Assembly (NCBI RefSeq): GCF_030012985.1
Contig: NZ_CP120233.1
Coordinates: 372,001-436,000 of the forward strand
From: Microbulbifer sp. VAAF005
GTDB lineage: Bacteria > Pseudomonadota > Gammaproteobacteria > Pseudomonadales > Cellvibrionaceae
Direction of reading: 5' to 3'
Length of the DNA stretch: 64,000 bases
How positions within the stretch are numbered: position 1 is the stretch's first letter; each line of letters opens with the position of its first letter. Under the pieces are notes generated by a model. It was not told where the DNA came from. It saw nothing but the letters and a program-made list of their open reading frames with translations, and made no database searches. Shown one piece after another: positions 17,010 to 31,430 of the stretch. Both the position numbers and the translations under genes were made by a program.

Positions 17010-19766
17010 ATGAGAGAGATACCCTTAAATACAAATCGCCAGCTAGATCTATTGAGGACGTCTGTAAGTGTTCTAGTGTTGTGCAGTGTTGTTGGTATGG
17101 CAAATGCCCAGAGCACCAGTGAATCTGATACAGAGAGTCTGGTGCTAGAGGAAGTAGAGGTATTGGGTATTCGCCGGAGCATGGAGAAAAATCTCGATGT
17201 AAAGCGTTTTTCCAATGCGGTGGTAGACTCAATCACCGCTGAAGATATGGGTAAATTTCCCGATAAGAATGTTGCAGACTCTTTGCAGAGGGTTCCGGGA
17301 GTATCCATCGTTCGAAGCGGCGGCGAGGGTGCCGAGGTAAGTATCCGAGGAACTGCACCTGAGCTCACTTTTACCCAGCTAAATGGAAACTATATAGCCA
17401 CTCCCGGCGATGATCCATCCCGATCATTTTCCTACGCATTGCTACCTTCAGCGATGATCTCCCGAGCGGATGTGTATAAAAGTCCAGAAGCAAAACTGGA
17501 TGAAGGTGGGATAGGTGGTACTGTAATTTTACACACCCGCAAGCCACTGGACCTGGATTCCGGGGAGGGCATGTTATCCATTGAGAGTACTTATGCTGAT
17601 GTTACTGAGGAGTACGAACCTCAGTACACCGGTTTTTACTCATGGAAAAATGATCAGGAAACCTTTGGTGTATTGTTTGGATACTCAAAGCAGGATCGTC
17701 AGAACCGGGTAATTAGCACCTCGGTAGAAAACTGGGGTTGGCAGGGAGATGAGTCCCCCCAGGCTGGCGTAGAGGCCAGGGGGCCGATGGTGGATATCGA
17801 CGGTAATGAATACCGGGATTTCTATGCGCCGCGAGCCGTTGTCGGTAGTGTATTGGAAGAGGAGCGGACCCGGGATGGCATGCAGCTAAGTGCCCAATGG
17901 CGTCCGGTAGAACAGCTGGAATTTGGTGTCAATTATTTCCGCTTTGAGCTGGGCGGCAACTCAGAGAATTATCGTATCGTATTTCCTGAGTGGAACTACG
18001 GGGATGCAATAGCGCCGGGCAGTCTCAAGTTTGATGAAGATGGTGATACTCTTCTCGGCATTGGTATGCTCGATCGGGGCCAGGCAGAGTTACAGTCTCC
18101 ACAGGTAGCTGGTGACTACACTCGAGCGGAATATGTTTCGGATACGCTGGATTTCAATATCAGTTACGAGGGAGATGGGTATAGTGCTCGTCTGGTAGTC
18201 GGTAATACCAGTGCAGAGGGCGGCCCCTCTGAGAAATTGTTTGCATCAGTCAATTCCCGTTATGGCACTGCAACCGATTGGAGCTGGGATCTCAGCAGTG
18301 GCACTGCCGAAATTGATACCAGTGCAGATCTGGGAGATCCCAACACTTATCCTTTATATGACTGGTTCTCATCCCATTGGACCAGCAGCGAGGACGATGA
18401 GAGTTACTACCAGCTGGACGTTTCCATCGATATGGATTATGCCTGGCTTACCTCCCTGGATGTTGGGGTTAAGTACCGGGACCATGAGATAAACCGCCGC
18501 ATCACCAAACAATCCTGGGATGATGATAATCCTCCCTGTCCAACGATTAACTGGGGTGATGTTGATGGAGCTTGTTACCCCTGGTGGCCAAGTGATTCAT
18601 TCCACACTGACCCCGATGGTGTGCCCGACACAATCGATATCCTTTCAAACGGCCCTCTCGATAATATTATCGGCGGTGTGAATGTGCCAAATTTCGCTTA
18701 TCTGGAGTCTGATAAGTTAAAAGAGTTTCTATACGCAACCTATGGTGACCCTACGGTAATCGTCGAGAAAAATCAGGTTTACCGGGTTGGTGAGGAAATT
18801 ACGGCTGCTTATGTACAGCAGAATTTTGCCTTGGCAGTCCTGCGCGGAAACTTTGGCATTCGAGCAGTCCAGACCAAGCAGTATGCGAGCACCTACGACA
18901 ATATTGATGGGGTCTTACAGGACGAACCCAATATACGTGACAGCAGCAATACTGATATTTTACCTAGTGCTAATATCGCTTGGGATATCTCAGATGAAAT
19001 GGTTATGCGCGCAGCTCTCGCTAGAGTCGTAGCGAGAGTGGAATACGATAATCTCGGGGGTTCTGAAGTGATCCACGCTCCTTTGCCCGGCTCAACAGTC
19101 AGTCAAGGGTATGCAGGCAATTCTGAATTGGAGCCTTATAAAGCTGATCAGTTTGATTTGGGTCTGGAGTGGTATTTCGATGATGCCTCTGCTGCAGGAC
19201 TGACCTTGTTCAGAAAGGATATTGCTTCGTTTGTAATCAACGGCAGTTCCATGGTGACAAGGGATGTCGATGGTGTTACCCGGACAGTGTCTATGTCTAT
19301 GCCGGTTAATGGCACTGATGCTACCGCGCAAGGTGTAGAGCTGTTTGTTCAGTATGCCTTTGATAATGGCTTTGGAGTCTATGCAAACTATACCTTCACA
19401 GATACGGAGCTAGCTGAGATTGACTCTGAAGGTATCAAATCCAAAACAGAAATTGCCGGCACTTCGAAGGAACAGTACAACCTGTCCCTCTACTATGAAA
19501 ATACCGACTTTAGCATTCGCGCTTCTTACAATTATCGGAGTGACTATGCAGACGGATTCCACAATGGCATGAACACTTTCACTGATGAATACGATCAGTT
19601 GGATGTTAATGCATCTTATCGTTTGATGGATAACCTGACGTTGACCGCCTCAATAATCAACCTTACCGAAGAGAAGGTGGATAGATATTGGGGTGAGGAA
19701 AACAGGGTCTGGGGCTCCTCATATTCAGGCCGACGAGCTTATATGGGGCTGACTTATAGTTTCTAA
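17010..19766 (+). CDS. TonB-dependent outer-membrane receptor
   Basis: A 918-residue outer-membrane receptor. A signal peptide (about 1-34, ending ANAQ) is followed by a plug domain (NAVVDSITAEDMGKFPDKNVADSLQRVPGVSI, given here as its position about 70-100) and a 22-strand-type barrel ending RRAYMGLTYSF with the terminal Phe used by the BAM machinery. The FPDKNVADSLQRVPG motif is typical of the proteobacterial TonB receptors that import oligosaccharides. Its place behind the dehydrogenase genes suggests it brings the glycoside substrate into the periplasm. No TonB or ExbBD genes are nearby. Confidence 0.92.
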   Translation: MREIPLNTNRQLDLLRTSVSVLVLCSVVGMANAQSTSESDTESLVLEEVEVLGIRRSMEKNLDVKRFSNAVVDSITAEDMGKFPDKNVADSLQRVPGVSIVRSGGEGAEVSIRGTAPELTFTQLNGNYIATPGDDPSRSFSYALLPSAMISRADVYKSPEAKLDEGGIGGTVILHTRKPLDLDSGEGMLSIESTYADVTEEYEPQYTGFYSWKNDQETFGVLFGYSKQDRQNRVISTSVENWGWQGDESPQAGVEARGPMVDIDGNEYRDFYAPRAVVGSVLEEERTRDGMQLSAQWRPVEQLEFGVNYFRFELGGNSENYRIVFPEWNYGDAIAPGSLKFDEDGDTLLGIGMLDRGQAELQSPQVAGDYTRAEYVSDTLDFNISYEGDGYSARLVVGNTSAEGGPSEKLFASVNSRYGTATDWSWDLSSGTAEIDTSADLGDPNTYPLYDWFSSHWTSSEDDESYYQLDVSIDMDYAWLTSLDVGVKYRDHEINRRITKQSWDDDNPPCPTINWGDVDGACYPWWPSDSFHTDPDGVPDTIDILSNGPLDNIIGGVNVPNFAYLESDKLKEFLYATYGDPTVIVEKNQVYRVGEEITAAYVQQNFALAVLRGNFGIRAVQTKQYASTYDNIDGVLQDEPNIRDSSNTDILPSANIAWDISDEMVMRAALARVVARVEYDNLGGSEVIHAPLPGSTVSQGYAGNSELEPYKADQFDLGLEWYFDDASAAGLTLFRKDIASFVINGSSMVTRDVDGVTRTVSMSMPVNGTDATAQGVELFVQYAFDNGFGVYANYTFTDTELAEIDSEGIKSKTEIAGTSKEQYNLSLYYENTDFSIRASYNYRSDYADGFHNGMNTFTDEYDQLDVNASYRLMDNLTLTASIINLTEEKVDRYWGEENRVWGSSYSGRRAYMGLTYSF

Positions 19767-19786
19767 CCTCATTGCCGCCCAGTCAC

Positions 19787-19808
19787 GCGGACACAGGGAC
19801 GTGTCCGC
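19787..19808 (+). terminator. terminator of the TonB receptor gene
   Basis: GCGGACAC and GTGTCCGC form a perfect eight-pair stem around AGGGAC, 20 bp past the stop codon. A T-rich stretch (CTTTCTGAAAATTTTTAATTT) follows. Confidence 0.7.
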
Positions 19809-19971
19809 ACCTTTCTGAAAATTTTTAATTTCATATCAGCGTACTCAGTTTAGGCGCAATTGAGTATTTTATTAGCTCTCATATATCAATTCGATCTAGG
19901 AAATGTGTGCATTTTATACTAGTACTCAAGTGGAGGAGTAATTTAAAGTAGTTTGAATGGAGGGATTTATC

Positions 19972-20046
19972 ATGTTTAAAGTATATATAGAAGACACAGC
20001 ACCCTATGCTCTGGGAGTTGCTGTCGCAGTCTACACTACCTGTTAA
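19972..20046 (+). CDS. 24-residue small peptide, candidate modified-peptide precursor
   Basis: A 24-residue ORF opens MFKVYIEDTAPY, continues with a Gly/Ala/Val-rich stretch, and ends AVYTTC directly before TAA. GGAGGG lies seven bases before the ATG, a near-ideal ribosome-binding site and better than that of the next gene. A TATACT box at 19915-19920 could be its -10 element. The C-terminal Thr-Thr-Cys supplies residues that heterocycle-forming or oxidising enzymes use, and the next gene encodes a SagB-type dehydrogenase, the azoline oxidase of thiazole/oxazole peptides. No YcaO cyclodehydratase is in view. Precursor status is inference from size, ending and neighbour. Confidence 0.5.
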   Translation: MFKVYIEDTAPYALGVAVAVYTTC

Positions 20047-20066
20047 TAGAAGGTAGTTATTTTGAA

Positions 20067-20103
20067 AAGTGAGATGGCTCTTAAATATAGGGACGTCTCA
20101 CTT
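20067..20103 (+). other. hairpin between the small ORF and the SagB-type gene
   Basis: AAGTGAGATG pairs with CGTCTCACTT (ten pairs, one G-T) around a 17-base loop. No T-run follows, so partial termination or mRNA protection is more likely than full termination. Such stems let a short precursor gene be expressed above its enzyme. Confidence 0.5.
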
Positions 20104-20187
20104 GAGGGTAGTAAAAATTAATTTAGATTTCAGAGATTCTGCCTTTCTAGTTTTCTTACCAATATTACTAAATATGATGGTTAAGCG

Positions 20188-21288
20188 ATGAAGAAAGGTT
20201 CCGCTTTATTAGATAGTTTCTTTCTCTATTTCAGTGAAAATGAAGTCATCTTGTGGGATGTTGTTCATCACGATCAGTGGGCTTTGGATAAAGAAACCCT
20301 CATAAATATTCTGGATAAATTTTATTCCGATGTGCAGACAGGAGAAACTAAGGCAGCAGATTTTCTTCAAAGTAATGGGGCCTTCATCAGTGGTGATCTA
20401 GCCCGGAAACAATGGGGTTGGGATGTACTATCCTGGTTTTACCATTATGGCACCAAGCTTTCGTTACCGCCCTCAACTGAGGACAAAGAAGGGGACAGTG
20501 AAGATCCCAGGGTATCTTGGGTAGGGCAGTATGTTGACTACTGTAAACAGGTGCCGGAAAAGGCTAAAGGCAAGTACAATTATCCAGAAGTGGATATTCC
20601 ACTGAATAGCTTTCCTATCACCAATCAGCTGGAATCTGTGTTTGGGACTCGTTTTTCTTCACGAAAATTTGTACCGGGAGCTACTTTAAAGCGAGAGCTT
20701 TTGGAAAAGATTCTCTTTCACTGTGTCAAATTCCGTACTTCTCCGTTTGTTGAAAAGTTTTATAAGGCCCACTCAGACAAAATAAATTATTTTGGGTATT
20801 TTCGCAGCAGCCCTGCTGGCGGCGCCTTACAAGCTACAGATATATACCTGATAGTGCACTCGGTACAGGGGATTGATCCCGGTATTTACCTCTATAATCC
20901 GATTGATCATGGATTAACCAAAGTCGGCGATGCTGTTAGCCATGATAAGATACGTCGTTTGTTGGTAGGTCAACCCTATGCCGAGGGTGCCGCAGTTAAT
21001 ATTTGCTTTGTCTGCAAATTTAATCGGTTCTGGTCTAAGTATCGTCATTCTCGTATCTATCGGATGGCTTACCTTGAAGCGGGTCATTTATCTGAGAATA
21101 TATTTCTCTACGCTCATTCCCTAAAACAAGACGTGTTTATAGCCGGCGCTTTTTATGATGAAGAGTTTGAGAGTCTATTGAAGCTGGATAAGGATAGCGC
21201 CATGGTCTTTTTTATGGCTATTGGGGAAGGAGAGCATGCCTGTTTCCCGGTAGAGTACTTGCCTTCTGATTCAACAAAATTGGATTAA
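20188..21288 (+). CDS. SagB-type FMN-dependent dehydrogenase (nitroreductase fold)
   Basis: A 366-residue protein of the SagB/ThcOx branch of nitroreductases, which oxidise azolines to azoles in thiazole/oxazole-modified peptides. Markers: WFYHYGTKL near 83-91 (SagB N-terminal block), RFSSRKF at 155-161 (FMN phosphate-binding RxSxRxF), SPAGGALQATDIYLIV at about 208-223, GIYLYNPIDHGLTKVG, and LEAGHLSENIFLYAHSL near the C-terminus (the EAG-x5-N/I block). It stands alone: no YcaO, no E1-like protein, no transporter. The 24-residue ORF 142 bp upstream is its only plausible peptide partner. The ribosome-binding site is weak (TTAAGCG). Confidence 0.82.
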   Translation: MKKGSALLDSFFLYFSENEVILWDVVHHDQWALDKETLINILDKFYSDVQTGETKAADFLQSNGAFISGDLARKQWGWDVLSWFYHYGTKLSLPPSTEDKEGDSEDPRVSWVGQYVDYCKQVPEKAKGKYNYPEVDIPLNSFPITNQLESVFGTRFSSRKFVPGATLKRELLEKILFHCVKFRTSPFVEKFYKAHSDKINYFGYFRSSPAGGALQATDIYLIVHSVQGIDPGIYLYNPIDHGLTKVGDAVSHDKIRRLLVGQPYAEGAAVNICFVCKFNRFWSKYRHSRIYRMAYLEAGHLSENIFLYAHSLKQDVFIAGAFYDEEFESLLKLDKDSAMVFFMAIGEGEHACFPVEYLPSDSTKLD

Positions 21289-21467
21289 TGAGTAATAGTT
21301 AAATGTTTTGCCTGAAAAAAGAACTTTGACATTGCGGTAATCGATGATTTTAGGGCCAAAATAACCAGTTTGGGATTTCCAATGAGCATAAAAGAGAAAA
21401 GGTACTTATGGTGAGGTGAAAACTGCAAAGCAGTATGCCCCACCGAAATAGATAAGGATAAGGTGCG

Positions 21468-22130
21468 TTAGTGCAGGGTGTTGACCAACCGTGAACTTAA
21501 GCGCATGGTGGGGGAGAAGCGGATCATATCGATTAGAGAGTCGATATAGCGTTCACCGAGTTCGCCGATATCTTCAATTCTTGAGGATAAGAGCCAAGTT
21601 TCAATCACACCGAACAGGCCACCGTGTAACATCTGCATCGCGAGGTCTGTATCAAGATCTTCGGGCAGTTGGCGCTCGGATACTGCGAGGGCAATCAGTT
21701 GTGCCATTCGCTCAAGCCCGCGGGTGCGCCCTTGCTTCATACGCAAGTGGGCTTCATTGTTCTCGGTAACCTTTTCTTCACAGGGATGGAAGATAATCTC
21801 AAGTACCTGCTGCCACTCTGGGTTACAAGCAATTTCCTGAAACAGCCACACCCAGCGGGTTCGCAGTGTACCGAGGGGATTGGCGTTGAGTTGCTCGCCG
21901 GCGTTATTACAAAGTTGTTCGCCGGGTAGTACCATGCGTTCTGTCAGAGCGAGTAGCAAACCGGTTTTGCTGTGAAAGTGGTCGGCAACAGCACCGCAAC
22001 TAACTCCAGCCAGCTTTGCAACTTCAGAAAGGGAAGGGCGACACACTCCATACTCATGAAACACATTGAGCGCGGCGTTTAATATACGCTCACGGGTGGT
22101 TAAAATTTGCTCATCTCTGCGTTTGGTCAT
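21468..22130 (-). CDS. TetR-family regulator of the RND efflux operon
   Basis: A 220-residue TetR-type repressor. The helix-turn-helix is at about 12-60 (TRERILNAALNVFHEYGV, then LSEVAKLAGVSCGAVADHF). The C-terminal half resembles AcrR/TtgR ligand domains, including a segment like LQMLHGGLFGVIETWLL. It is transcribed away from the RND adaptor gene with 272 bp between the starts, the usual layout for a local efflux repressor released by a toxic compound. The ligand is unknown. Confidence 0.88.
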   Translation of the reverse strand: MTKRRDEQILTTRERILNAALNVFHEYGVCRPSLSEVAKLAGVSCGAVADHFHSKTGLLLALTERMVLPGEQLCNNAGEQLNANPLGTLRTRWVWLFQEIACNPEWQQVLEIIFHPCEEKVTENNEAHLRMKQGRTRGLERMAQLIALAVSERQLPEDLDTDLAMQMLHGGLFGVIETWLLSSRIEDIGELGERYIDSLIDMIRFSPTMRLSSRLVNTLH

Positions 22131-22303: not shown

Positions 22304-22402
22304 CCCATAAAATGCCACGCTACTTTAATTGGATTTCCCTGTCACTTAAAAATTCCGCTAGCTGCCAACTTTTTGTCTGTGCAGTCAGGTTTAGAGGTAG
22401 TC

Positions 22403-23587
22403 ATGTTAAAAGCCCGAGCCCTCACCAGTCTTTTGGTCGCTTCCGCATTGTTGGCGGGATGTAACGAGGAAGCTTCGGCTCCACCGGGAATGGTCCCCCA
22501 AGTGACCGTAGTCACACTTCAGCCTGAATCAGTCACCCTTACCAGGGAGCTTCCGGGGAGGACTTCACCGTTTAAAGTGGCCGAGGTTCGCCCGCAGGTT
22601 AATGGCATCATAAAACGCCAATTGTTCCGTGAAGGTGGCCAAGTCAGTGCAAATCAGCCGCTTTACCAGCTAGATGACGCTCTCTACCGTGCTGACGTTG
22701 ATAGTGCCAAAGCAAATTTTCAAGGTGCAAAGGCGGCTATGAACATCGCTCGCCTCAAAGCCGAGCGTACCGCGAACCTGGTAGGTAATGGTGCCGTTAG
22801 CACGCAGGAAAATGATGCTGCAGAAGCCGATCTTCAGGAGGCCCGAGCCGATGTAGCCGCAGCTCAGGCGGAGCTGCACAGGGCGGAAATCCAGTTGGAA
22901 TATGCGCGGGTTACCTCTCCGATTACTGGCCGAATTGGCAAGTCAACAGTTACTCAAGGCGCTCTGGTAACGGCCAATCAGGCCGGAACTTTGGCTACAG
23001 TGCAGCAGCTAGATCCTATCTATGTTGAGGTTACCCAGTCGGCAGCTGAGCTTGTTAGCCTCCGCCGAGCACTTCAAGCGGGCACACTGGCCGACGCCAC
23101 TCATCTACCTGTGACAATCCTATTAGAAGATGGCAGCGAATTTGAGCACCAGGGCAAGCTGGAGTTTGCCGAGGCCAGTGTCGATCCCTCAACTGGCAGC
23201 GTGTTGTTGCGAGTAGTTGTCCCAAACCCGGATACCATGCTGTTGCCGGGTATGTATGTGCGCGCAATTGTCGGTAGTGGTGTACGTGAAGACGCAATTC
23301 TGGTACCTCAGCAGGGAATCGCGCGGGACCCAAAGGGCAACACCTCAGCCATGGTTGTTAATGAGGAAAATGTGGTTGCCCAGCGATCTGTGCGGGTTAG
23401 TCGTACGATTGGCAATCGCTGGCTAGTGGAAGATGGGCTCGAGGCCGGGGACAGGGTCGTAGTTGCCGGACTGCAGAAAATTCGCCCAGGAGCCCCGGTA
23501 CAGGCCAGCGAGCGCGAAAATGAGCAGCTGCCGGCGGCTGAAGGCGATCAACAGGCTGGCGAAGCGCCTGCACAGCAGGGGTCTTAA
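22403..23587 (+). CDS. RND efflux periplasmic adaptor (AcrA/MexA type) lipoprotein
   Basis: A 394-residue membrane-fusion protein. [20 protein letters not shown] is a lipoprotein signal with lipobox LAGC. Then come the beta-barrel and lipoyl halves ([32 protein letters not shown]), a helical hairpin (about 100-165), and [15 protein letters not shown]. It bridges the inner-membrane pump to an outer-membrane channel. ATG at 22403 with TTAGAGGT upstream is preferred over a TTG at 22373. It ends 11 bp before the pump gene. No TolC-type gene follows, so a channel encoded elsewhere is probably used. Confidence 0.93.
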
Positions 23588-23598
23588 GGGTAGGGGTT

Positions 23599-26500
23599 AT
23601 GGCAAGTTCTTTTATCAATCGGCCCATCTTTGCCTGGGTGCTGGCAATTATCACGATACTGGCAGGTGTGTTGTCTATCGGCGAGCTGGCAGTTGAGCGC
23701 TATCCAAATATTGCGCCACCGTCGATCAATATTGAGGCAAATTATCCGGGCGCTTCCGCCAAGGTGGTTGAGGATTCGGTTACTCAAATCCTTGAACGCA
23801 ACATGAAGGGCCTCGATGGTCTCCTTTATATGTCCGCCACCAGTCAATCCAACGGTGGCGTTTCAATCTCTTTAACTTTCGAGAATGGAACTGACCCGGA
23901 TACGGCCCAGGTCCAGGTGCAAAACAAAGTGCAACTGGCGATGCCGCTGCTGCCACAGGAGGTCCAGGTACAAGGAGTAAATGTTAGTAAGTCTCGAGGT
24001 GGCTTCCTAATGGTTGCCGGCTTTGTGTCTGAAGACGGCAGCATGAACCGCAATGATATTGCTGACTATATCAATTCGGCCATTGTTGACCCGATCAGCC
24101 GGGTGCCAGGTGTGGGCAATGTGCAGGTATTTGGTTCCAAGTACGCGATGCGGATTTGGCTCGATCCCAATAAGCTCACCACCTATGAACTTACTCCTGA
24201 TGATGTTACCGACGCAGTGCGGGCCCAAAATGCACAAGTTACGGTCGGAAGCCTCGGTGCTGCTCCCTCTATTCCAGGACAACAACTAAATGCGGCAATT
24301 ACTTCCCAGGAACGTTTGCAAACCCCTGAGGAGTTCCGGGATATTATCGTCAGAGCCAATGACGACGGCTCGCTCTTGCACCTCGGCGATATAGCTCGGG
24401 TCGAACTAGGTGCGGAGAATTATGAGTTTATTTCCCGTTACAATCGCCAGCCCGCAACCGGCATTGCAATTAACTTGGCGACTGGGGCCAATGCCCTGGA
24501 AACTGCTGAGGGGGTGAAAGCCAAGTTGAAGGAGCTGGAGGCTTACTTTCCCCGTGGCCTGACCTCAGTAGTACCGTTTGACACGACACCGTTCGTTGAG
24601 GCCTCTATTAAGGGTGTCATCACCACCCTGATTGAAGCGATCGTCCTGGTATTCCTGGTGATGTATCTGTTTCTCCAGAACTTCCGCGCCACGTTGATTC
24701 CGACGATTGCAGTACCCGTGGTACTGATGGGCACTTTTGCCGTGCTCGCTTCGCTGGGATTCTCGGTCAATATGCTCACAATGTTTGCCATGGTGCTGGC
24801 CATTGGTCTGCTTGTGGATGACGCCATTGTGGTGGTGGAGAATGTCGAGCGGGTGATGCGGGAGGAAGGACTCTCCCCTAAAGAAGCGACTAAGAAGTCG
24901 ATGCACCAGATTACTGCGGCACTAATTGGCATTGGCGTAGTTTTGTCGGCAGTGTTTGTGCCTATGGCATTTATGGATGGCGCCACCGGCGTGATCTACC
25001 GTCAGTTCTCCGCCACGATTGTTGCCGCTATGGCGTTGTCAGTGTTGGTGGCGATTATCCTGACACCAGCGCTTTGTGCGACCTTGCTGAAGCCAATATC
25101 CAAAGGGAAGGGGCATGGGGAGAAGGGCTTTTTTGGCTGGTTCAATCGCAACTTTGATCGAGGTAGCCAGCGCTATCAAGGTGGAGTGCGAGGTATTTTG
25201 AAGCGCAGCGGTCGTTTCATGCTGTTGTTTGTTGCGCTTTCCGCAGTCATGGCCTTCCTATTCCTACGGTTGCCCAGTTCGTTCCTGCCGGATGAGGATC
25301 AGGGTGTGCTGTTCTCCATGGTGCAGGCGCCGGTGGGGGCAACCCAGGAGCGCACTATGAACTCTATCCGAAAAGTAGAGGACCAGTTCCTGAACAATGA
25401 GCAGGGTATCGTGAAATCAGTATTCTCGGTACAGGGGTTCAGCTTTGCCGGCAGCGGGCAAAATACCGGTATTGCTTTTGTAAATTTGGAAGATTGGTCC
25501 CAGCGTGAAGAAGAGTCTCAGAGCGCTGGGTCTGTCGCCATGCGCGCGATGGGTGCCTTGATGCAAATTAAAGATGCGATGGCTTTCGCTTTTGCACCTC
25601 CGCCACTCCCCGAGCTGGGTTCTTCTGGTGGTTTCAACTTCTATCTTCAGGATAATGGCAGTTTGGGCCATGAGGCATTAACTGCAGCCAGGAACCAGTT
25701 TCTGGGAATGGCCGGGCAGAGTGAATTTTTGGCTAATGTTCGCCCCAATGGCCAAGAGGATACCCCGCAATTCCGTGTAAAAATTGATAATGCAAAAGCA
25801 GCTGCGCTTGGCTTGTCTATCGACGATATAAACAGCGCCTTGAGTACAGCATGGGGCGGCTCATACATTGATGATTTTATCGATCGCGGGCGGGTGAAAC
25901 GGGTGTATATGCAGGCTGATGCTCCCTTTAGGATGGTCCCGGAAGACTTCCAATTGTGGTCAGTGCGTAACGATAAGGGCGATATGGTACCGCTATCATC
26001 CTTTGCCAGTTTTGGCTGGGAGTACGGTTCCCCCCGCTTGGAGCGCTATAACGGCGTTCCCTCAATGCAGGTTAATGGGCAGGCTGCACCCGGAGTCAGC
26101 TCTGGTGAAGCAATGGAAGAGGTTGAGCGCCTAGTGGCGCAGCTACCCGCAGGTATTGGTTTGGAGTGGAGTGGTCTCTCATATCAAGAGCGCTCTGCTG
26201 GAGCACAAACCCCATTGCTGTATACCTTGTCCCTTTTGATTGTGTTCTTGTGTTTGGCTGCTCTCTATGAAAGCTGGACAGTGCCGACAGCAGTACTATT
26301 GATGGCTCCTTTGGGAATCCTGGGTGCGGTACTGGCCAATAGCCTAAGGGGCATGGAGCGCGACATTTACTTCCAAGTCGCGATGCTGACTACAGTGGGG
26401 CTAACCAGTAAAAATGCCATCCTGATTGTGGAGTTTGCCAAACAGAACCTGGAAGACGGTATGGAGTTGGTGGATGCCACGATGCGAGCTGTACGGGACA

Positions 26501-26802
26501 GGTTACGCCCGATTTTAATGACATCTCTCGCTTTTGGTTTGGGGGTGTTGCCCTTAGCCATAGCAACCGGAGCTGGCTCAGGTGCCCAAAGGGCAATCGG
26601 TACCGGTGTGTTCGGCGGCATGATTGTTGGAACTCTACTGGGAATCTTCTTTATCCCACTGTTCTTTGTTGTGGTGCAGCGGTTGTTTGGCAAGAGAGTG
26701 CATAAGCAGGAAGTGGAGCAGGCTAAACAAGACGGCTCTTCAGAAAAAAAGAGAGAGCAGAAGCGGCTGAAGCGCTTTAACAGAGCTTTAACTATAAAGT
26801 AA
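23599..26802 (+). CDS. RND multidrug efflux pump (AcrB/MexB type)
   Basis: A 1067-residue hydrophobe/amphiphile efflux-1 pump. It has 12 membrane helices in two halves with large periplasmic loops. The proton-relay Asp pair is seen in [18 protein letters not shown] (about 400-417). N-terminal [19 protein letters not shown] and the late [19 protein letters not shown] are family signatures. It exports drugs, solvents or bile-like compounds using the proton gradient. Cotranscribed with the adaptor and probably repressed by the divergent TetR protein. Confidence 0.95.
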
Positions 26803-27191: not shown

Positions 27192-27560
27192 ATGGATTTA
27201 AAAGTTAAAGAAGGTCAAGTGTGGAAATATGATAATCGAGAGGGCGAGGAGAATTCGCGGGTTATCATATTAAAAATTGAAGAGTCTAAGGACGATTCAA
27301 TGGTGGTACATGCTCAGATTTCAGGCATTAAAATTTATAACCCTAATAGTGGAGAGGTCATTGAGGAAATTACTCATATGCCGTTTTCAATTGAGGCACT
27401 AGGGGCGAGTTTAAATGAGCTGATGGGGGAGTCTGAGATACCTGATTTTGAGGAGGGCTATGATTCGTGGAAGAGAGAATATGATAACGGTAAAGCGGGT
27501 GTGTTCACTATTTCTATAGGAGAGGCTGTGAAGTATATGGATGATGCGGTGAACAGCTAA
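27192..27560 (+). CDS. hypothetical protein, intact copy of a duplicated gene
   Basis: A 122-residue acidic soluble protein of unknown function, with no signal peptide or membrane helix. It begins MDLKVKEGQVWKYDNREGE and has a conserved-looking core THMPFSIEALGASLNELMG and a C-terminal half rich in acidic and aromatic residues (FEEGYDSWKREY). A diverged copy of residues 30-122 lies at 31146-31430. Small acidic duplicated proteins among decayed IS elements often turn out to be immunity proteins, but nothing here proves that. GAAGAG lies seven bases before the ATG. Confidence 0.6.
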   Translation: MDLKVKEGQVWKYDNREGEENSRVIILKIEESKDDSMVVHAQISGIKIYNPNSGEVIEEITHMPFSIEALGASLNELMGESEIPDFEEGYDSWKREYDNGKAGVFTISIGEAVKYMDDAVNS

Positions 27561-27628: not shown

Positions 27629-28710
27629 TCAGAGGCTGATGTATTTCTCCAAACGATCGGGGAAGTGGATCGTTAGCTGTGACAGCGTCAGATTCCAGTT
27701 TTGAATTGGGTGCGTCCGGCGCTCGGAGGCTTTTAGTATGCCGGCGTACAGAAGCTTCAGTAAGCTATTCTCATTGGCGAAGTCTCCCTTGTTTTTGGTC
27801 AGCTTGTGGAATTGCCTGTGGACGGCTTCCACTGCATTTGTCGTATAGATCGGTGTGCGGATAGATTCCGGGTACTTAAAGTGGGTAGAGAGAATTGTCC
27901 ATTTACTGCCCCACGACTTTATCACCATTGGATATTTTTCTTCCCACCGAGCTTCCAGCTTATCTAAAGCGCTCTCGGCGGTATAGAGCGTTGCCGCTTT
28001 GTAGATGCACTTAATATCAGCTATAAAGGTCTTCTGATTTTTTGAAGCTATATACTTCAGCGAGTTTCGGGTCTGGTGAATGATGCAGTGCTGGATCTCG
28101 GTATTTGGGCAGATGATCTCTATGGCCTCGGGAAAGCCCTGGATGCCATCAGGATATCTTTGACCCCACGGTTATGGAGGTCAGTTAGGACGTTCAGCCA
28201 ATGGCGGGCGCCTTCTTGGTCGGATAAATAGAGTTCCAACAATTCATTCTTGCATTCGATATTGAGACCAAGAATCGTGTAAATGGCCTTGCTAGCATAA
28301 CGACCATTTTCCTTGATCATATAATGAAAAGCGTCGAGCTAGACGATAGGGTAAATAGCCTCCAGATCACGCTCACACCAGGCTTTAAGCCCAGGCACAG
28401 CTTGTTTGTAACTGTGTTGTTGGCACCGTTGGAAAGCTCCATTCCACAGATATCGGCAATATGTGTACGAATGTTCTGGTAGCTGTTACCCAAGGCAAAC
28501 AGGGCAGTGATTTTGCGCTCCAGTTCGTCGGTAAGCTGGGCTTGATGCTTCACGATTTGAGACTCAAAAGAACTAGCACGGTCCAGTGGCGTCTGCAGTT
28601 CGAAGCTACCGGCGGGACTTTTCATGGTTTTTGAGGTGGTACCATTCTTGCGGTTGGGCTTGTCCCCGCTGGCGAGGTGCTCCTCCAATTCCGCCTGCAT
28701 GGCCGCCATG
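27629..28710 (-). pseudogene. IS256-family (mutator) transposase, decayed
   Basis: Three frames together give most of an IS256-type transposase. Fragment one runs from about 28700 (AAMQAELEEHLASGDKPNRKN) to NNTVTNKL; a frameshift follows near 28400; a TAG near 28340 replaces the Trp expected in PIVWLDAFHY; fragment two (MIKENGRYASKAIYTILGL) runs to GVKDILMA; another frameshift near 28145; fragment three (DGIQGFPEAIE to FPDRLEKYISL) is open to the stop at 27629. With two frameshifts and a nonsense codon no active enzyme is expected. No terminal repeats were identified. Confidence 0.85.
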
Positions 28711-28962
28711 GTTTGATCCCCGTGGTAGATCTTTCTCATTACCTTTAAAGCCAGATTCTGCGAACCTGTTTCGCCATCTAGCAATTTTATGGGCACTAAA
28801 GGGCAAGCGTTCAGTAATTTCTCTGTTCGATAAATCTTCATCGCCAATCAATACAATTGACAGGCGCTCTTTGATTCCCGCTGGAGTCTTACCACTGCGA
28901 CAGAGACGTTGAAACTCTTTACGTTCCTCTTCAGTGAGGGCTATTGTTACGGGGGTGGACAT
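28711..28962 (-). pseudogene. IS630-family transposase, N-terminal fragment
   Basis: From ATG at 28962 about 80 residues match the helix-turn-helix region of IS630-type transposases: TIALTEEERKEFQRLCRSGK, LSNREITERLPFSAHKIARW, FAESGFKGNEKDLPRG. The frame then enters IS256-type sequence, so the rest of the IS630 gene is missing. The IS256 piece probably landed in, or recombined with, this gene. Junction near 28700-28715 by eye. Confidence 0.75.
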
Positions 28963-29802
28963 TGTCTGTATACCAAAAGCAGCAGTTGGGTCACAAATTA
29001 TATTTAAATAGTTTGTTCGTTACACCACTACTAGTTAAGTAGAGACCGCTGATCAAACTACCTGAGAAACATCCTCCATACCTCGAAACCAAGCATGCGC
29101 TAAAACTGAGGTCTTTCCAGCAAGTGCTCAGTGGAGGGTAAGGTGAAGGATGGTCTTTCTTTCGTAACCTGATAGCAAAATCCATAAGATAGCTTCAAAA
29201 CATACTCAGTTATCAATAGGTTTCAGACCTACTTTTCTACATTGTAGCTGGGGAAGGCAAGGCTCAATCAATTTATGAGGCAACTTATAGTTCTTAGTTA
29301 GTTTGAGCGTAAGCCTGTTCACATTTAATTTTTTACATTCTGTGAATACAGGAAAGAAATCAATTCCAAGTGGTGAAGTTTCGTATGTTGGTGGAGACTT
29401 TAGCAATTCTTGATGGCGGTATGGCCACTATTTCAATGAACAACCATAATATCCATACTTATTTTTTGAGTTTTAATAGGTATATTTTGTAGAGAGGAAT
29501 CTACAGTATGACTTTAGTATCGCTCCTTTTTTTTCGGTTTTGAAATGTGCATGGAAAATTCCTTAATTGATAAATTTAATGCTCTAACCCATATTGTGAG
29601 ATGTTTATCCTAATGTGTTTGTTATGTCAGGTGTGGATGATTATGTTGTTGTTCGGAAAGCAGGTTTGCGGCTATTAATAGCGGGCGGGGTGATGCCCTT
29701 ACGGATTTTACCATTGATCTGAATTTATTAATCTGTAAGTATTGAATACAGCTAGACCCGGATAGGGAATTTTAACTAACCTTTTAATTGATAGAGATTT
29801 TT
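28963..29802. other. 840-bp A+T-rich stretch, no gene recognised
   Basis: Between the IS630 fragment and the Stv-like gene. A 66-residue minus-strand frame at 29206-29406 and a 32-codon plus-strand frame from about 29624 were read, but neither has a ribosome-binding site and a recognisable family. Probably decayed DNA. Confidence 0.4.
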
Positions 29803-30363
29803 ATGAAAACTCGTGAATTCGGAAACGTAATAATACATAAAAAAGATAACTCGACTGGGGGAGAGGCCATTCTTTATGCGCATGGTTCATTTGATAAAGG
29901 CTCCAAAGTTGTGGCGCTGCCAGGAAAAGTAGCAATGTACTTTTACTCCTTTCATGGCTCTGCTTCTACTGATCATGCAGTTAAAAGTTTGACTAAAACG
30001 GGTAAGCCTGCCGACGAGGATAACGAGAATGAGTTAGTCACATTTAGCGAAGCTAAAAAATTTCTGAGAATGGGGTCTGGAAAAGCGATTTCTATTGCTG
30101 GCTGCGGTGCAGAGGTTCGCAACTACAATCTTTCGTATAACGAAAAAGGCGGTCCACATCTGGATAATATCAAAACCGCTTGGGAAGGTGGACTTCATGC
30201 CCACGATCTGATTTTAGTGAAAGAGGGTGCCAACATTAAATTGGCTGATGTTTTCAAGGTTATCACTGAAAACAAGTTAAAATACACTAGGATACATTTC
30301 ACTGCTTGTCGGTCACCTAGCCGAGGGAATGATTTTGACCAGCAGAAGCCTTACCCGTACTAA
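29803..30363 (+). CDS. Stv-like (putative adhesin/effector) protein with possible His-Cys dyad
   Basis: A 186-residue soluble protein without signal peptide. The pattern of a hydrophobic strand, YAHGSFDKG (residues 25-33), then MYFYSFHGSAS with His51, and a late strand IHFTACRSP with Cys169 recalls the Stv-type domain family and, more loosely, caspase-fold cysteine peptidases where His-Gly and Cys ends of strands form the dyad. The family assignment is tentative and enzymatic activity is inference. ATG at 29803 follows AGAG by six bases; a TTG at 29788 is less likely. IS remnants lie on both sides, which suggests horizontal gain. Confidence 0.5.
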   Translation: MKTREFGNVIIHKKDNSTGGEAILYAHGSFDKGSKVVALPGKVAMYFYSFHGSASTDHAVKSLTKTGKPADEDNENELVTFSEAKKFLRMGSGKAISIAGCGAEVRNYNLSYNEKGGPHLDNIKTAWEGGLHAHDLILVKEGANIKLADVFKVITENKLKYTRIHFTACRSPSRGNDFDQQKPYPY

Positions 30364-30760: not shown

Positions 30761-31108
30761 CTAGATTGCCAACATAAGTGACAGACGCTTACCCACTAGA
30801 AATTCCAGCGGGCTCCAATAATTTAACATCATTCTAGGTCGGGCATTAATACGATACACTGCATCGTCAATTTGCCTGTTCGGTAAATTGCTAATCTCTA
30901 TCCCTTTCGGAAAAAAACGCCTCATCAGTCCATTGGTAATTTCGCTTAAATCACGCTCCCATGAGTGATACGGTTTGGCAAAATATATATTGCAGCCTAG
31001 TTTCCGCACGGTCGACTGACGCCCCGCGAATTCACCTCCGTTGTTGTAAGTTATGGTTTTACACACGGCCTGATAGTACTTTAGCGCCTGCGTGATTGCA
31101 CGGCCCAC
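30761..31108 (-). pseudogene. IS30-family transposase, C-terminal fragment
   Basis: 115 codons match the last part of the IS30 integrase core: TITYNNGGEFA, LGCNIYFAKPYHSWERDLSEITNGLMRRFFPKG (as parts), and INARPRMMLNYWSPLEFL. The catalytic Asp of the usual T-x-D-N-G-x-E-F motif is Asn here, and the N-terminal half is missing, so it is inactive. Its upstream end abuts the truncated gene copy at 31146. Confidence 0.8.
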
Positions 31109-31145
31109 TGTCTTCTTACTCTTATTTGATATTCTGCGAGTAAAA

Positions 31146-31430
31146 ATGGAAGAGTTTAAGAACGATTCAATGGTAGTGCATGTTCAGATTTCAGGTATAA
31201 AGATTAATAACCCTATTAGTGGAGAGGTCTTTGAGGAAATTACTCATATGCCGTTTCTAATTGAGGCGCCAGGGGTAAGCATATCTGAACTGATGGGGGA
31301 GTCTGAGATACCTGATTATGAGGAATGCTATAATTCATGGAAGCGTGAATATATTAATGGCAATGCCGGCGTGTTCACTATTTCTATTGGTGAGTCAGTG
31401 AAGTATATGGATGATGCGGTGAACAGCTAA
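31146..31430 (+). pseudogene. 5'-truncated second copy of the hypothetical gene at 27192
   Basis: From MEEFKNDSMVV to YMDDAVNS the 94 codons align without gaps to residues 29-122 of the protein at 27192, with about a dozen and a half substitutions and the identical C-terminal end. The first ~28 codons are replaced by IS30-type sequence, so the copy lost its start and promoter. It may still be translated from the internal ATG, but no ribosome-binding site is evident. Confidence 0.7.

Follow-up and report, generated by a model that had tools for sequence, protein, structure and literature searches.

We have identified a family of short peptide genes that adjoin genes for SagB-type dehydrogenases, and describe a member of it in Microbulbifer sp. 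VAAF005. The window is the whole 64,000-nucleotide stretch that was analyzed (contig NZ_CP120233.1, positions 372,001 to 436,000), and it holds a 24-codon open reading frame (ORF) beside a gene for a SagB-type flavin mononucleotide (FMN) dehydrogenase. Comparison between genomes supports a family of coding short ORFs associated with this SagB subfamily, with the window ORF as one of its members. This ORF very probably represents a genuine precursor gene, and we consider it highly likely that its peptide is the substrate of the enzyme. We lean slightly towards a minimal locus for a ribosomally synthesized and post-translationally modified peptide (RiPP), in which the 24-residue precursor would be oxidized directly by the adjacent SagB as the only local modifying enzyme. 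The elements of the pair are as follows.

19959-19964, plus strand: Shine-Dalgarno (SD)-like GGAGGG, found by reading the sequence, 7 bases 5' of the ATG at 19972; the same in G010, a second genome of the genus
19972-20046, plus strand: precursor peptide ORF of 24 codons, MFKVYIEDTAPYALGVAVAVYTTC, with the family motif M..[IV].[LIM]E; ortholog in G010, MKRVYIEDTAPYALGVAVAVYTTC
20067-20103, plus strand: hairpin in the interval between precursor and enzyme, with a 10-bp outer stem
20188-21288, plus strand: SagB-type FMN dehydrogenase of 366 residues with RFSSRKF, SPAGGALQ and Lys284-Tyr285; N-terminal strand-strand-strand-helix domain at about residues 1-130, nitroreductase domain at about 140-350

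A plasmid-borne SagB of Maritalea myrionectae is 27.6% identical to the window enzyme over 92% of its length. The ORF MKKVTRTFPNKEKLASFVLDVNGVC lies directly upstream of it, with AAGGAG before and, as judged by eye, a stem after. This precursor is absent from the gene table listed for Maritalea, a table known to be incomplete; ORFs of such length are easily missed in annotation. A search with the Maritalea enzyme returned full-length relatives, and an alignment of 13 proteins scanned against genome contigs found 127 relatives. The best 80 of them were fetched and, together with Maritalea, the window and G010, make 83 loci. The enzymes of the family have about 350 residues and the precursors about 20-31 residues in most members. 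Short ORFs were found upstream in most fetched loci, such as MKSISLESKKIANLAFLVAPKAR and kin in Pseudomonas, MKKIALEPTLSYQSNDAYN and kin in Burkholderiales, Yersinia and Photorhabdus, and MKKVSKSFPEKANLAALVFDSNGIC in Allorhizobium. Pseudovibrio has two upstream ORFs, and Chryseobacterium and its kin have at least two in tandem, for example MKPVTTSPIENDFFDINVICF.

An ORF fitting M..[IV].[LIM]E (ATG start, 16-70 codons, at most 400 nt upstream) was present at 63 of the 83 loci. In 20 sets of dinucleotide-shuffled sequence such an ORF turned up at 0.05 loci on average and never at more than 1, and neither the antisense strand nor the 400 nt downstream gave any. In the window itself, only the ORF at 19972 fits the motif among 665 ORFs that begin with ATG and have 16-70 codons, a count that takes in both strands and nested starts. 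The motif was picked post hoc, after the ORFs of the relatives and that of the window had been inspected. Of the other 20 loci, ten have, by reading, a candidate short ORF that does not fit the strict motif (L010, L013, L021, L022, L036, L043, L048, L054, L055 and L079), and no short ORF was seen at the remaining ten (L011, L014, L015, L034, L039, L050, L061, L066, L074 and L078). The sequence-only reading of the window had proposed a two-gene peptide-modification locus without a YcaO cyclodehydratase, and had named SagB loci lacking a conserved upstream ORF as counter-evidence. The proposal is supported by the comparison, since most members of the SagB subfamily have an adjoining upstream short ORF, and with 63 of 83 loci under the strict motif such counter-evidence did not appear overall.

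The short ORFs also carry the signature of coding sequence. The ratio of nonsynonymous to synonymous differences (pN/pS) in the ORF frame was 0.42 among 31 distinct Pseudomonas sequences and 0.18 among 17 sequences of the QSNDAY type, with values of 1.2-2.5 in the shifted frames; in both clades these substitution patterns indicate purifying selection on the peptide, confined to this frame. The synonymous-site comparison suggested earlier thus supports coding in two other clades, and the window peptide itself has too few changes to be informative. Coding signs at the window are the motif, the SD and the intact ortholog in G010, where the DNA changes are confined to codons 2-3 and the frame is kept. 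All 41 peptides of the ANL/ANW type (one of them from Cupriavidus, L031) have E7 and A12, and 40 have N13; all 17 QSNDAY peptides have E7 and QSNDAY, and Ser14 is kept. Because choosing loci by the motif itself dictates E7 and the start pattern, only the remaining conserved residues are free evidence. At L019 (about 2642-2806), a single ORF carries the leader and the QSNDAY unit twice in frame, as a fused double precursor. None of five short peptides tried matched an NCBIfam family.

The SagB subfamily was recovered as a branch with support of 88 in one tree and 89/66 in another, the trees having taken 30 or 27 of the 81 loci L010-L090 plus chosen proteins. A protein search with a 39-row alignment found 18 proteins and few new full-length members. 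A sample of the class (369 genomes, E<=1e-40) gave seven matches, namely the window and six that matched in the catalytic part only (at least the first 70 profile positions unmatched); the peptide motif was found at none of these six distant SagB-like loci.

The C-terminal halves of the peptides diverge strongly between clades and the start is conserved. This bears on whether the peptide might instead be a small subunit or activator of an oxidase that acts on a small molecule. Cyclodipeptide oxidases, which belong to the same superfamily, work as a pair of large and small subunits, the AlbAB filament is among the structural matches of the window enzyme, and the AurF and carbamoyltransferase partners found in other clades could act on a small molecule. 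We nevertheless hold a subunit role to be quite improbable, because variable C-terminal halves behind a kept start form a leader/core pattern, and because tandem duplication, seen in Bacteroidota with conservation of the core and within the L019 ORF as a repeat, is a habit of precursors.

At the window, the start signal, the 24 codons and the hairpin described by the sequence-only reading were all present on re-reading. Its remark that the peptide ORF has the stronger SD also holds, with GGAGGG before the peptide against a weak SD at the SagB gene. A start at the in-frame ATG 19957 would lengthen the peptide to 29 residues, but no SD lies close to that codon. The 91-nt hairpin segment has a folding energy of -18.6 kcal/mol (z -2.13), equalled in 5 of 200 shuffles, and an Rfam scan of 19600-21600 found nothing above threshold and two sub-threshold matches. 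In the hairpin test, which was restricted to the 63 motif loci, a stem of at least 8 bp followed the peptide at 58, with a mean z of -1.96 and z < -2 at 28. The hairpin may be an attenuator that lowers expression of the enzyme relative to the peptide. A strong-SD short ORF followed by a stem might also suggest that the ORF is a mere regulatory leader peptide, which together with the hairpin would control SagB. This is very improbable: the amino acids of MKx[IV]x[LIM]E are conserved with synonymous change, the ORFs occur in tandem copies, a run of a single codon family was not seen by eye in the motif peptides, and by reading of the sequence no T run lies directly 3' of the window stem.

The enzyme described earlier, a SagB-type protein of 366 residues with RFSSRKF and SPAGGALQ, was borne out by profile searches. 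PF00881 was the sole Pfam domain (58.7 bits), and TIGR03605 matched at 93.9 bits, above its cut-off of 78.4. The best NCBIfam match, over the catalytic half, was to TIGR04511, 'putative peptide maturation dehydrogenase', at 105.1 bits; four other family members scored 120-167, all below the cut-off of 240. One protein scoring 505 bits (P0033) and two so named (P0032 and P0035) branch outside the window family. The nitroreductase domain is preceded in the family alignment by an N-terminal signature, ILWDxxxHxQ ... WGWDxLSxxxHxGT, which in the window reads ILWDVVHHDQ and WGWDVLSWFYHYGT and which the Bacteroidota and Maritalea-type enzymes keep only in part. The structure model places strands at 11-16, 19-24 and 29-33 and helices at 35-46 and 55-62, then a helix at 80-88, with a predicted local distance difference test (pLDDT) score of 59-86 in this block; a single-sequence model (pLDDT 34.9) was useless. 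A RiPP recognition element (RRE) domain is defined as bbb-aaa (strands, then helices) in PMC12710340. No separate RRE structure was among the structure-search matches for the N-terminal part, a region that this search barely tests. The window and G010 enzymes are 97% identical, with pS 0.254 and pN 0.012, values that indicate strong purifying selection.

A search with PF02624 found no YcaO in the window's own genome (5.4 Mb, one contig), and as a control it matched 5 of 14 named genomes; the look-up proposed from the sequence alone thus yielded none. The single TIGR03605 match in this genome is the window SagB. Among the window neighbors that were scanned there was no cyclodehydratase, and no protease or ligase. 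The only MNIO of the genome (PF05114, 344.7 bits) lies at 2181259-2182038 of contig C1, about 1.8 Mb from the pair. For 50 of the 80 fetched loci, in 49 genomes (assemblies of untold completeness, several of them metagenome-assembled), YcaO was present in 20 genomes and none was found in 29.

The pair resembles thiazole/oxazole-modified microcins and linear azol(in)e-containing peptides of the streptolysin S and microcin B17 type in its SagB/McbC-type flavin dehydrogenase and its short upstream precursor gene. It differs from them in that its genome lacks YcaO, and the family differs in that its precursors mostly have about 20-31 residues and often no Cys, Ser or Thr in the C-terminal part. 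BmdC, an oxidase of bacillamide nonribosomal peptide synthesis, and ThcOx, a cyanobactin oxidase, oxidize azolines made by nonribosomal Cy domains or YcaO enzymes; no such azoline-making partner was found at the window. An azoline route is nevertheless to be weighed, in which the C-terminal Thr-Thr-Cys would be cyclized by an unrelated enzyme from another locus, such as an MNIO or an ATP-dependent enzyme, and SagB would oxidize the thiazoline to a thiazole. McbC, BmdC and ThcOx are the top structural matches of the enzyme model, the TIGR03605 score is above the cut-off, and the genome does hold one MNIO, at 2.18 Mb. The window peptide has TTC only at its end, and a Cys also lies at or near the peptide end in Maritalea, Allorhizobium and Chryseobacterium with its kin, all outside the strict motif. 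Against this stand the genome without YcaO, the scanned neighbors without a cyclodehydratase, the distance of the MNIO, and the motif peptides: despite homologous enzymes, Cys occurs anywhere in only 6 of 63 and in the last four residues in only two, those of the window and G010. The C-terminal Cys, offered earlier as the target, is therefore not a general rule. Some Cys, Ser or Thr follows residue 8 in 16 of the 41 ANL/ANW-type peptides and none does in 25, so azoline oxidation is not the general reaction of the family. It may still apply to the window, with its TTC end, and to the QSNDAY clade, with Ser14; as an account of the pair we regard the azoline route as unlikely.

A nitroreductase RiPP without YcaO is already known. 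In Pseudomonas (pfl/pos), the YcaO-free nitroreductase domain of PflD was shown to make Z-dehydroPhe in PflA, and the authors suggest that other YcaO-free nitroreductases of RiPP clusters make other dehydroamino acids (PMC12636437). This 2025 preprint calls RiPP-cluster nitroreductases that lack YcaO or are fused to MNIO rare and functionally uncharacterized. PflD-type and Os17 RiPPs share with the window a nitroreductase domain and the lack of YcaO; they differ in having the nitroreductase fused to an MNIO (Os1351, 650 residues), an 85-residue Os17 precursor, and HEXXH and GNAT partners (PMC12636437, PMC7726476). The window has instead a 366-residue enzyme with a predicted RRE-like N-terminal domain, a lone 24-residue precursor and no MNIO fusion. 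The Os17 cluster was accordingly rejected as the same system, its SagB (650 residues) and precursor (85 residues) being different (PMC7726476). AlbA cyclodipeptide oxidase and TyzC belong, like the window enzyme, to the nitroreductase superfamily, and alpha,beta-desaturation is the reaction that we propose here. No description of the peptide-SagB family was found by searches in an open-licence library, outside which most subscription papers and preprints fall.

We propose that the start MKx[IV]x[LIM]E is a recognition strand bound by the RRE-like N-terminal domain of the enzyme, and that the FMN domain would take two hydrogens directly from at least one residue in the C-terminal half of the peptide. 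The likeliest reaction would be alpha,beta-desaturation, turning a hydrophobic or aromatic residue into a dehydroamino acid, rather than azoline oxidation. In Pseudomonas a YcaO-free nitroreductase domain makes Z-dehydroPhe (PMC12636437); direct desaturation by the window enzyme is possible, somewhat short of probable. Candidate targets, at a guess, are Tyr12, Leu14 and Tyr21. Tyr12 is named on the weak basis of a by-eye alignment, in which L, F or W mostly precedes the mid-peptide Ala in Pseudomonas, Allorhizobium, Maritalea and Pseudovibrio; at that place the window peptide reads Tyr12-Ala13. Leader removal and export would fall to genes outside the pair.

The peptide could alternatively be a carrier, a scaffold from which one residue, once oxidized, would be released by cleavage as a small molecule. 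Very short cores would suit this, as would the AurF and carbamoyltransferase neighbors of other clades, which are typical of small-molecule pathways, and the FVG (gvg) pathway likewise needs two tiny ORFs, with a carbamoyltransferase in its cluster (PMC8067088, PMC8064604). The gene table of that pathway lists no SagB, and FVG was therefore set aside as an analogy only. No protease or ligase was among the scanned window neighbors, and we think a carrier role improbable.

Returning to direct oxidation, we tentatively envisage a RiPP class across Pseudomonadota and Bacteroidota in which an RRE-headed SagB, sometimes as sole enzyme, would desaturate precursors of about 20-31 residues directly, with clade-specific tailoring by N-oxygenase, carbamoyltransferase or LanB. 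The window pair would be its most stripped-down form, an acquired two-gene cassette of 1.7 kb. The family offers many natural YcaO-free examples, down to one enzyme and one 24-residue peptide, and the chemistry should therefore be readable from a single co-expression. The pair may offer a new and simple way to make modified peptides. If direct desaturation is true, it would provide a compact tool for dehydroamino acids in peptides and a substrate for SagB-annotated genes without YcaO.

The extent of the cassette was estimated from close relatives.

19819-21498, no strand: approximate cassette extent, from synteny with the genomes G004 and G043 up to 19818 and from 21499, and from a GC dip

Six of 145 related genomes, the own genome included, match the enzyme: the own genome, G010 and four with partial matches at 25-32% identity. 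A degenerate DNA pattern for EDTAPYA was found in 2 of 48 genomes of the genus, again the own genome and G010. Synteny with G004 and G043 extends over both flanks, with DNA identity of 76.6-78.1% in the left one and 73.0-77.1% in the right one, and in these genomes an asparaginase gene (PF01112) occupies the place of the cassette. By coordinates, G003 and G009 likewise have asparaginase adjacent to the TetR gene; in G024, G030 and G042 it is located elsewhere, the G030 stretch covering the right flank only. Neither the own genome nor G010 has an asparaginase match at E<=1e-60. In G014 it lies beside TetR, split into two pieces about 2.9 kb apart (contig C1, 2330150-2334008). GC content in 800-base steps is 39-43% inside the insert and 47-56% outside, and the contents of the insert are the peptide ORF, hairpin and enzyme gene, with no further ORF of at least 100 residues listed.

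In the fetched loci, partner families were defined by clustering and one Pfam-scanned representative each; the counts are approximate because the gene caller was crude, with SagB missed or split in several loci. An AurF N-oxygenase with a major facilitator superfamily (MFS) transporter was found at 34 of the 80, and such a transporter alone at 5. A carbamoyltransferase occurs at 16 (12 with MFS), an ATP-binding cassette (ABC) transporter at 6 (4 with an aspartyl protease and LanB), one other recognized gene at 3 and none recognized at 16. The AurF-type, carbamoyltransferase and LanB neighbors probably tailor the product, and the MFS and ABC neighbors probably export it. The four loci with SagB, ABC transporter, aspartyl protease and LanB dehydratase are those of Chryseobacterium (L048, L054, L055 and L079), possibly a combined lanthipeptide-like and SagB pathway.

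The TonB receptor near the pair was ruled out as a part of the system: it represents ancestral context, because its cluster is syntenic in G004 and G043 without the pair. At five Bacteroidota loci (L021, L055, L074, L078 and L079), a gene of one TonB/outer-membrane protein cluster lies near SagB, maybe by chance. The AcrAB-type efflux pair (22373-26802) is likewise ancestral context, at least over the first part, to which the flank matches extend. Further downstream, an unknown protein occurs in two diverged copies of 122 and 112 residues (27192-27560 and 31092-31430), both without a Pfam match, with a Stv-domain ORF (29788-30363) between or near them. Fragments on the minus strand at 28317-28962 and 30761-31108 look transposase- or integrase-like, with a weak HTH_23 match only. 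At three alphaproteobacterial loci a thiamine pyrophosphate riboswitch lies on the other strand, immediately upstream of SagB (L034, 1668-1779; L039, 5740-5857; L061, 5725-5834), and no short precursor ORF was seen there. In Pseudovibrio axinellae (L043, 1631-5242), genes carrying tRNA-synt_His and HisG domains lie upstream of SagB and its two short ORFs.
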